Of a DNA stretch of 34,931 bases, positions 25,813 through 27,714 are shown in pieces. The translations under genes and the position numbers were made by a program. The notes under the pieces are model-generated. The model had not been told where the DNA came from and did no database searches. It saw only the letters and a program-made list of their open reading frames with translations. Positions within the stretch are counted from its first letter, which is position 1. Every line of letters starts with the position of its first letter. The DNA comes from a bacterium (GTDB lineage: Bacteria; Cyanobacteriota; Sericytochromatia; S15B-MN24; VGJW01), in assembly GCA_021781555.1 (NCBI GenBank), contig JAJXWQ010000026.1, positions 7,787-42,717 on the forward strand, written 5' to 3'.

Positions 25813-26775
25813 TCAGCGTGCGGCTGCGCGTGCCTGGATGATCCTACATGCCAGGCTCCAGGCGGATTTCAGGCTGCCTGGGTTGCTGGTTCCGGACCCG
25901 GCTATGTCGAGGGCGGTTCCGTGATCAACGGATGTCCGTACGAAGGGAAGTCCAACCGTCATGTTGATGCCGCGGTCAAAACCCAGGAGTTTGAGCGGAA
26001 CGTGGCCCTGGTCGTGATACATGCAGACGACGAGAGCGAAGTCCCCACGGGCCGCCCGCATGAAGGCCGTATCTGGAGGAAGCGGTCCGAGCGCCGCGAT
26101 GTTGCGCCGGCGCGCCGCGGCGATCGCAGGAGCGATGATCCGGAGCTCCTCGTCGCCGAAGGCCCCGTCCTCTCCTGCATGTGGGTTGAGACCACAAACC
26201 CCGATCGTCCCGCCGGGCTCTCCCAGCTGCACCAGAGCCAGGTTTGCCAGGGCGATCGTGTCTTCGATGCGCTCCACGGAGAGGGCTGCCGGCACGTCCT
26301 TCAGGGCAATATGGGTCGTGACGTGCAGGGCGCGCAAGGGCTCGACGATCAGCAGCATGCCGAACCGGGTGGTGCCCGAGAGCTCCGCGAAGAACTCGGT
26401 GTGTCCGATGAATCCCGGGCGCACCTGCTGGACGGCCGCCTTCTGGATGGGACCCGTGACAACGCCTGCAAGCCTTTGCGAGAGCAGATCCTCGCCCAGG
26501 CGTTCGAGTACGGCGAGGGCGTGCGCACCGGTTTGCCCGGAAACCCGGCCCGGGACCGGGAGCTTTCCTGGAAACTCGACCGGAACGATCGCGAGATCCG
26601 GGGGCAGCGCTACCTTGGCGATCTCGGCCCCGCGCCAAACGACGCGAGCGTCGCCGTACACGACAGGCTGCGCCCCCGTCAGGCCAGAAAAAAGCGCCTG
26701 TGCGAGGATCTCGGGCCCGATTCCGGCCGGATCTCCGTAGGTAAGAGCCAGCTGCGGAGCAAGTTCCTTGGTCAT
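25813..26775 (-). CDS. pdxA: 4-hydroxythreonine-4-phosphate dehydrogenase
   Basis: 320-residue enzyme of the DXP-dependent pyridoxal phosphate pathway. It oxidises 4-phosphohydroxy-L-threonine with NAD and needs a divalent metal held by three His. Visible blocks: LTYGDPAGIGPEI at the N-terminus, VTGPIQKAAV, the first metal-ligand region PGFIGHTEFFAE, HVTTHIALKDVPAAL, CGLNPHAGEDGAFGDEE and MYHDQGHVPLKLLGFDRGINMTVGLPFVRTSVDHGTALDIAG. All are intact. I chose the ATG at 26775; the open frame continues to 26970 through the duplicated hairpin element and is not conserved. There is no ribosome site, but a promoter ends 11 bases upstream. Nothing else of the B6 pathway is nearby. Confidence 0.96.
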   Translation of the reverse strand: MTKELAPQLALTYGDPAGIGPEILAQALFSGLTGAQPVVYGDARVVWRGAEIAKVALPPDLAIVPVEFPGKLPVPGRVSGQTGAHALAVLERLGEDLLSQRLAGVVTGPIQKAAVQQVRPGFIGHTEFFAELSGTTRFGMLLIVEPLRALHVTTHIALKDVPAALSVERIEDTIALANLALVQLGEPGGTIGVCGLNPHAGEDGAFGDEELRIIAPAIAAARRRNIAALGPLPPDTAFMRAARGDFALVVCMYHDQGHVPLKLLGFDRGINMTVGLPFVRTSVDHGTALDIAGSGTSNPGSLKSAWSLACRIIQARAAAR

Positions 26776-26815: not shown

Positions 26816-26832
26816 GCTTTTCGGCTGGCCAG

Positions 26833-26890
26833 CCGGGCCCCGTTTGACTCCCCGGACCCGAGCCACTCAAACCGGGAGCTCCCTAGAACT
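26833..26890. repeat. 58-bp hairpin element, copy 1
   Basis: Identical over 58 bases to the copy at 26937-26994, same orientation, 104 bases apart start to start. Within it CCCCGTTTGA and TCAAACCGGG form a stem (9 of 10 paired) with a further CTC/GAG inside, next to the palindrome GGGAGCTCCC. The 46-bp spacer between copies is not duplicated on either outer flank. Confidence 0.9.
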
Positions 26891-26936
26891 TTTGCATTTG
26901 AGACGGGTCCCTCTGCGCGGTCGCTGCGCTGCGCAA

Positions 26937-26994
26937 CCGGGCCCCGTTTGACTCCCCGGACCCGAGCCACTCAAACCGGGAGCTCCCTAGAACT
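26937..26994. repeat. 58-bp hairpin element, copy 2
   Basis: The second identical copy carries the stop codon and last Phe codon of the converging beta-barrel-like gene (stop at 26987-26989). On that gene's strand the stem follows the stop directly, so it probably acts as its terminator; copy 1 would then be a duplicated 3' end or an independent insertion of a dispersed element. Confidence 0.9.
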
Positions 26995-27670
26995 CCTCGT
27001 CGAGAACGAGGGTGCCGCGTATCTCGTTGCCCCCCCCGAAAAGGAGACCGCCGATGGCCGAAGTGTGGCCGACGCTGGCCTTCACCGAGGCGCCTCCGAA
27101 GAGCGCGTTGCCGTAGGCATCTTCCAGCTCGGTGTCCCCGTATACGACCTGGATGCCCGGCTCGATCGCTGCGTTCACCCGGTAGCCGAGGCCCCAGCTC
27201 GCCCCGTACCGGGGCCCGCCCGGCGCGAGGGCCCCCCCGAGGACGAGGTTGCCGTCCGAGACGAACTTCCCGAGGTCCTTTTCGAGGACGAGGATCCCTT
27301 GCAGATCCAACGGGCCCCCCCCGGCCATGGGGCGTTCGAGTTCCACGACCAGACCGGTATCGACGGGCCATTGCCCGGCCTTGGCGAACCGCGCGGCGCC
27401 TTCGAGGCTCAGGGCGTCGAGCCCGGTCGCCTGCACGACGTTGGCCTTGACCCCGACGCTCAGCTGATCCGTGACGCCGTACCCGAGTTCGGCCCGGCCC
27501 CCGGGTTCGCGATCGAAGTCGCCCCGGAGTTCGATTCCGAACCCGCCGGCAGGTTCCGCGGCATAGCCGTAGGTATAGGCAAAATTGCGGCCCTCGGCCA
27601 GCGCCGGAGAGCCGACGGCCACGACGAGCGCCATCGCGGTTGCGAGGATGGCGAGAGGCCTGGCGTCCAT
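26987..27670 (-). CDS. Probable small outer-membrane beta-barrel protein
   Basis: 227 residues. The ATG at 27670 has GGAG 5 bases upstream and starts a signal peptide (hydrophobic core LAILATAMALVVAVG, cleavage after ALA near residue 25). The frame stays open to 27931 but that part overlaps the PepSY gene. The mature protein alternates Gly-rich amphipathic stretches (RAELGYGVTDQLSVGVKANV, GLGYRVNAAIEPGIQVVYGD, IGGLLFGGGNEIRGTLVL) and ends in Phe, a usual signal for outer-membrane barrel insertion. No specific family is recognised. It follows the PepSY gene by 44 bases and is probably cotranscribed. A role in uptake or export beside the RND pump is inferred from position only. Confidence 0.7.
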   Translation of the reverse strand: MDARPLAILATAMALVVAVGSPALAEGRNFAYTYGYAAEPAGGFGIELRGDFDREPGGRAELGYGVTDQLSVGVKANVVQATGLDALSLEGAARFAKAGQWPVDTGLVVELERPMAGGGPLDLQGILVLEKDLGKFVSDGNLVLGGALAPGGPRYGASWGLGYRVNAAIEPGIQVVYGDTELEDAYGNALFGGASVKASVGHTSAIGGLLFGGGNEIRGTLVLDEEF

Positions 27671-27714
27671 CGAGGCTCCATTCAAGGACAGCAAACCGAG
27701 GTCAGCGGCAGGGC

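Follow-up and report, generated by a model that had tools for sequence, protein, structure and literature searches.

A recently expanded 104-bp repeat in CTAG sites, many of them stop codons, in a genome of the phylum Cyanobacteriota

Two identical 58-bp sequences (positions 26833-26890 and 26937-26994) lie 104 bp apart between pdxA and a neighbouring gene in the window, the whole stretch of 34,931 nucleotides that was analysed, and one of them carries the stop codon of that gene. The preliminary description took them for copies of a hairpin element that had either grown out of the gene's terminator or inserted at that place, by recent duplication or as part of a mobile, REP-like family. Three questions follow: (i) what the repeating unit is, (ii) how it came to lie on a stop codon, and (iii) what moves it. 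The answer preferred on balance is that the feature is a non-coding, MITE-like element of 104 bp, present one and a half times, mobilised in trans by a DDE transposase of the IS630/Tc1-mariner type and multiplied locally by slippage at its hairpin. Besides the genome of the window (G000), the comparison draws on a genome of the same genus (G001) and three of the same family (G002, G003 and G004).

The duplication is real, and its unit is 104 bp instead of 58. The longer alignment of the two window copies covers 67 bp at 96% identity. Copies elsewhere in the genome define the true unit, which lies on the minus strand of the window and has CTAG as its first four bases and a further CTAG just after its end. 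The 46-bp 'spacer' between the 58-bp copies is part of this unit, and the 58-bp limit is the point at which the second unit is cut off, not a boundary of the element. One complete and one truncated unit lie head to tail on the minus strand, in the following setting:

25813-26775, minus strand: pdxA, beyond the truncated unit (PF04166, E 1e-90).
26834-26886, minus strand: unit 2, cut after about 53 bp and joined to DNA upstream of pdxA (HMM match 26824-26881, model positions 2-59; homology with G001 on the pdxA side up to 26833).
26883-26886, no strand: CTAG between the two units (direct reading; elsewhere CTAG stands at 22 of 25 internal right junctions).
26887-26990, minus strand: unit 1, complete at 104 bp including its left CTAG (26987-26990); 88% identical to the family consensus over 102 positions (26889-26990); HMM match 26890-26984, 84 bits.
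26897-26902, minus strand: right arm CTCAAA of the subterminal inverted repeat (direct reading), altered jointly with the left arm relative to the consensus.
26904-26946, minus strand: core hairpin of unit 1, outer stem CGGGGCCC/GGGACCCG, inner stem TTGCGC/GCGCAG (from the fold; compensatory changes between genera).
26970-26975, minus strand: left arm TTTGAG of the subterminal inverted repeat, pairing with CTCAAA at 26897-26902 (consensus TTTGAA/TTCAAA).
26987-26990, no strand: CTAG target, with the TAG stop codon belonging to the minus-strand gene at 26987-26989; the gene end reads GAGTTCTAG in the window and GATTTCTAG in G001, where the element is absent.
26987-27694, minus strand: the flanking gene, earlier called 'beta-barrel-like', with its stop in the CTAG target (gene call; orthologue in G001 at L265).

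The flanking gene has no Pfam match at E 0.01. A tRNA origin, suggested by a minus-strand translation that resembled a mistranslated tRNA, was dropped: ARAGORN finds no tRNA at the site, and Rfam gives no match there up to E 1. An intrinsic terminator at the window site was likewise considered and dropped, none being found.

The 104-bp family is dispersed, specific to its lineage and recently expanded, with roughly 400 units in this genome. A 171-bp query has 47 matches in the window's own genome, and a 37-bp core with up to three mismatches has 422 in 3.82 Mb (214 forward, 208 reverse), against 0 for the reversed pattern. An HMM run over 20 stretches (242,405 bases) taken from contigs absent from the earlier hit lists, a sample whose bias, if any, would be towards too low a count, yields 25 whole or partial units, or about 103 per Mb, in agreement with the core count. 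Across all 41 sources (662,865 bases: the window, 20 stretches partly chosen for their copies and the 20 hit-list-free stretches), 105 HMM hits fall into 78 arrays, of which 57 are single units and 21 hold two to four; deletion forms shortened to about 50 bp occur at L074:13177 and L216:2527. Among full-length units, 16 of 68 equal the consensus and 18 of 68 differ from it by one base. Close copies are favoured in this set, 57 of the 68 coming from loci found by similarity; even so, many identical copies at separate places point to a recent burst.

Outside this genome the family is sparse. In a phylum sample of 386 genomes, a 26-bp core with at most one mismatch occurs in only four, all of one family (G000 420 matches, G001 8, G004 7, G002 1), and G003, of the same family, has none. 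A T-variant pattern searched in the GTDB species collection finds three contigs, belonging to the MAG DBS2-1.bin124 and to Cyanobacteria bacterium NC_groundwater_1444, and the match positions in them equal those in G001 and G004. Neither plasmids and phages (distant blastn) nor viral contigs (exact pattern) hold a match to the repeat, and none of the titles and abstract beginnings covered describes such a family in this lineage.

A second, different dispersed repeat, with a GAGGGAAC/GTTCCCTC hairpin, is seen at L078:14474-14555 and in the left flank of the L020 unit. It lies behind 56 of the 63 matches that one search returned in G001.

How the unit enters DNA can be read from G001, from which it is absent at all 11 sites compared (three in L078, two in L070, and one each in L079, L017, L015, L205, L215 and the window). 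At two of them both flanks are clean and the empty sequence has one CTAG or one TTAA: at L070:3108 the empty site is GGGCTAGTGGG, with a net difference of about 105 bp, and at L205:13778 the empty site GGTTAAGGACA corresponds to the filled GGTTAG..CTGAGGACA, one substitution being required under a TA model. Six further sites (L078:3015, L070:4778, L079:11785, the window, L215 and L017) keep CTAG, CTA or TTA at the target, and at three (L078:9793, L078:16105 and L015) the junction is uninterpretable. Four loci outside the 11 (L020, L207, L023 and L027), with partial or no matches in G001, were left unaligned.

In the family as a whole, counted from the ungapped match with one internal end (L015) left out, the outer left four bases (n=46) are CTAG in 32 cases, TTAG in 8 and other in 6, and the outer right four (n=43) are CTAG in 29, CTAA in 5 and other in 9; CTAG stands on both sides in 27 of the 49 hits with both ends scored. 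Single-base departures from CTAG fall on the outermost base in 14 of 18 cases (p 4e-6), and this variation, YTAG on the left and CTAR on the right, is what an element would leave if the TA of YTAR were duplicated and the element lay between the two copies. The end pattern and the two clean empty sites fit TA duplication, and blunt insertion between T and A gives the same sequences. These comparisons show that the unit inserts into a pre-existing CTAG, more loosely YTAR, and that the site is restored on both sides. The tetranucleotide CTAG is scarce in the genome: 329 are seen, against 628 expected from trinucleotides and 2,028 from base composition.

The hairpin is not where it was first placed. 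The 67-nt stretches around the 58-bp copies, folded as RNA on both strands, do no better than shuffles (z -0.11 to 0.63), and the stem described within each 58-mer is not confirmed; the real hairpin lies mostly in the former spacer. For the full 108-nt family consensus, folding gives z -2.4 (DNA) and -2.5 (RNA); the window's own diverged unit does hardly better than shuffles, with z -0.9 (DNA) and -0.4 (RNA), or -1.7 for the other strand as RNA. Between the cores of G000/G001 and G004, five outer-stem pairs have changed on both sides and still pair, a number reached in 8 of 500 shuffles and never above 1 in slid controls; 91.7% of cells are paired, against 81.8% in shuffles, in what is a small comparison of 6 distinct rows. 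Within G000 and G001 only (30 rows), the covariation score exceeds all shuffles (0/500), yet the control slid by +1 gives 14 two-sided changes against 11. In G004 the same core hairpin, with a different but paired outer stem, forms tandem arrays:

L034:753-954, L043:22-123 and L109:7480-7700: core-hairpin tandem arrays of G004.

The G004 copies have no CTAG in the stretches read, and the hairpin core is therefore more widely kept than the CTAG ends. The unit's candidate terminal inverted repeats, with GTTTGAAYGG at the same offset from both ends, are weak and agree at 11 of 22 anchored positions in the consensus (p 0.02) and at 12 of 22 (p 0.002) in an older form written by eye.

Like bacterial MITEs, the unit is short (104 bp), non-autonomous, present in about 400 copies and located mostly outside genes; among the 662,865 bases there are no convincing lone ends of a longer autonomous element. 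The genome has one PF13358 match, an IS630-type transposase of 386 aa, whose element of about 1.5 kb runs from CTAGTACCTCTGCACAGAGG to its inverse and sits in CTAG with TA at both ends:

L248:610-2131 and L249:608-2131: IS630-family element, in CTAG.

At L079:11785, G000 has a unit in the very CTAG where G001 has the IS630 element, and units abut IS630 ends at two further G000 loci, C13 and C173. The IS630 ends (TAGTACCTCTGCACAGAGG) and the unit ends (CTAGAGTGCTCCCGG ... CTGCAAAAGGYCTAG) resemble each other no more than expected by chance (p 0.07 to 0.95 when anchored at the ends, 0.09 to 0.68 in local comparison). For this reason the resident IS630 was dropped as the source of the unit ends and is unproven as the mover, and the unit is named MITE-like and not an IS630 derivative. 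A transposase of the IS630/Tc1-mariner type, whether this resident one or one since lost, is nevertheless the probable mover, if by no wide measure. It would cut and paste the unit in trans, inserting at TA and duplicating the TA, and tandem copies would then arise via slippage at the strong hairpin.

IS481 is specific for CTAG, and another CTAG-specific class, such as an IS481-like element making a four-base CTAG duplication or a serine recombinase, would account for the CTAG found on both sides of so many hits. This is improbable. A four-base duplication should repeat the left tetranucleotide, and in the six young arrays that have TTAG on the left and show both outer ends the right end reads CTAG (3), CTAA, CTGA or CCGA, never TTAG.

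Equally improbable is movement of the REP/RAYT type, in which the core hairpin would be a REP-like sequence carried in single-stranded form by the sole Y1 (IS200-type) transposase, with CTAG as the cleavage tetranucleotide. The genome has one Y1_Tnp gene, of 142 aa (L031:1456-1884; G000 C155:45260-45613). An orthologue that is 91% identical has matching surroundings in G001, G004 and G002 carry homologues (63%), and G003, which also lacks the core, has none. Presence of the gene thus tracks the core in five genomes, G000 has a degenerate 37-bp piece of the core some 160 bp upstream of the gene, and the compensatory changes show a hairpin kept across genera. Against this, IS630 is present in and absent from the same ones among the five genomes. 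No intact units flank the Y1 gene in G000, and in G001 none is detected in the 3.35 kb that surround it, so that the check for a REP-associated transposase yields a single gene unaccompanied by intact repeats. The residue that we take to be the first His of the HUH motif, placed by alignment to ISDra2 TnpA, is Gln in G000, G001 and G002 (QLH, QVH; three of four homologues), and on this sequence the protein looks domesticated. A TA target accounts better than a left-only tetranucleotide for the CTAR variation at the right end and for the TTAA empty site. Left ends of scored hits (n=70) are CTAG in 38 cases and GTAG in one, unlike the GTAG (or CGTC) tag of REP/RAYT; with CTAG at both ends and a 104-bp unit that moves whole, the REP-like reading of the preliminary description is weak.

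A variant of this reading is a shade less likely still: the old hairpin core would be the true replicating module, spread by a domesticated Y1 protein with an altered (QUH) site, and the CTAG/TA ends would have been captured in one genus. If so, a Y1-spread core would, through its captured ends, enter stop codons and leave the genes unharmed.

The preferred reading, insertion at TA by a transposase of the IS630/Tc1-mariner type, also bears on why the unit lies at gene ends. The window gene ends GAG TTC TAG, with the TAG inside the unit's CTAG; its G001 orthologue ends GAT TTC TAG and has no element after it in the stretch read, and the stop codon is therefore older than the element. The 58-bp copy does hold TTC and TAG, as first described, but it did not supply them. 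By the same comparison, insertion at this place is supported and an origin from the gene's terminator is not, since G001 has the stop without the element and the window site has no intrinsic terminator. Across the family, a terminal CTAG contains the stop of a gene in 13 of 28 young arrays, those with an HMM score of at least 94 (6 at the left end, 7 at the right). Of 492 called genes, 80 have CTAG as their last four bases. Away from elements, CTAG forms a stop in 60 of its 180 non-coding occurrences, and 81 more CTAGs lie in coding sequence. The excess in young arrays is not significant (13/28 vs 60/180, p 0.20), and the location at stop codons is therefore treated as a by-product of the target. 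None of the 78 arrays is called within a gene body, in a test that a gene cut by a unit would escape, with gene calls that come from our own codon model and are approximate. What these counts show is that the target CTAG is often a TAG stop in this genome, and that the stop is kept after insertion.

It is very unlikely, in view of these numbers, that the unit is a functional 3' end element, a terminator or mRNA-stabilising hairpin that spread by serving genes. The 13 stops held by young arrays, with either end serving, are what such an element would leave; they do not clearly exceed the background, the window site has no terminator, and the unit is missing from all 11 sister-species sites.

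The head-to-tail arrangement of the window is common in the family: 27 pairs of neighbouring hits share an orientation and 2 do not. Full-length neighbour pairs (n=18) differ by a mean of 2.6 bases within loci and 5.3 between loci; when tandem pairs are re-paired, none of 10,000 permutations is as low as 2.6, and several pairs have rare private variants in common. Duplication in place fits better than repeated arrival, because independent insertions into a palindromic CTAG should take either orientation, and the tandem copies probably arose in place. Core-only arrays with 59- to 63-bp spacing occur among the other copies. For the window, the dispersed family foreseen by the preliminary description is borne out by the 422 core matches, the four genomes in 386 and the young arrays at stops, and the recent duplication also proposed there probably came on top of it, as a local tandem event. 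A simple local duplication with no family behind it, for which the head-to-tail copies and their common variants might speak, is refuted by the same genome-wide matches.

The truncation has a history of its own. In G001, pdxA and the orthologue of the flanking gene lie on separate contigs with other neighbours, which places a synteny break at 26833/26834 of the window, and homology with G001 on the pdxA side ends at 26833, the cut point of unit 2. Since G001 places the two genes apart and homology stops at this point, the element appears to lie at a rearrangement joint. The element would have inserted at the minus-strand gene's stop codon and then duplicated, and the second copy would have been cut by the rearrangement that joined pdxA.

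The mobile repeat at this locus is very young and of high copy number, in a lineage of the Cyanobacteria phylum that has received little study, and its empty sites can be seen in a sufficiently close relative. The repeat offers a simple mechanism for elements at gene ends, in which a scarce CTAG is often a stop and TA insertion restores it, and it illustrates the in-place tandem growth of mobile units. Repeats of this kind break assemblies and can sit at rearrangement joints. Core matches lie within about 70 bases of the start of the G000 contigs C9, C15, C16, C23, C24, C35, C38 and C39, and the copy number of arrays is therefore probably underestimated by the assembly.

Among known systems, REP/RAYT and REPIN families are alike in their hundreds of palindromic copies, a single Y1 gene and a compensatory hairpin; the 104-bp family differs in its CTAG at both ends, its 104-bp unit and the lack of intact copies beside the transposase gene. 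Correia/NEMIS and ERIC elements, in the outline given by PMC2229807, are 100-200 bp long with TA ends and a stem-loop, and their copy number is described as high (PMC10969869). Compared by description only, the 104-bp unit has weaker terminal repeats, a strong CTAG context and use of stop codons. Insertion of ISY100 is almost entirely confined to TA, which is duplicated, according to PMC2170065, which also cites a paper whose title gives the preference of IS630 for TA in 5'-CTAG-3'. Both belong to the Tc1/mariner family and are autonomous, with a transposase, unlike the 104-bp unit; a TA target with duplication would be alike. A further parallel is RUP, the repeat unit of pneumococcus, a 107-bp sequence in 108 copies that inserts at TA, is linked to IS630 and is also found within IS elements (PMC2229807). 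Both are short units, insertion at TA and a link to IS630 would be further features in common, and the 104-bp unit abuts IS630 ends at some loci. RUP ends match those of IS630-Spn1, whereas the resident IS630 ends here do not match the unit, and relative to RUP as so described the 104-bp family is more numerous, often forms head-to-tail arrays and targets CTAG.
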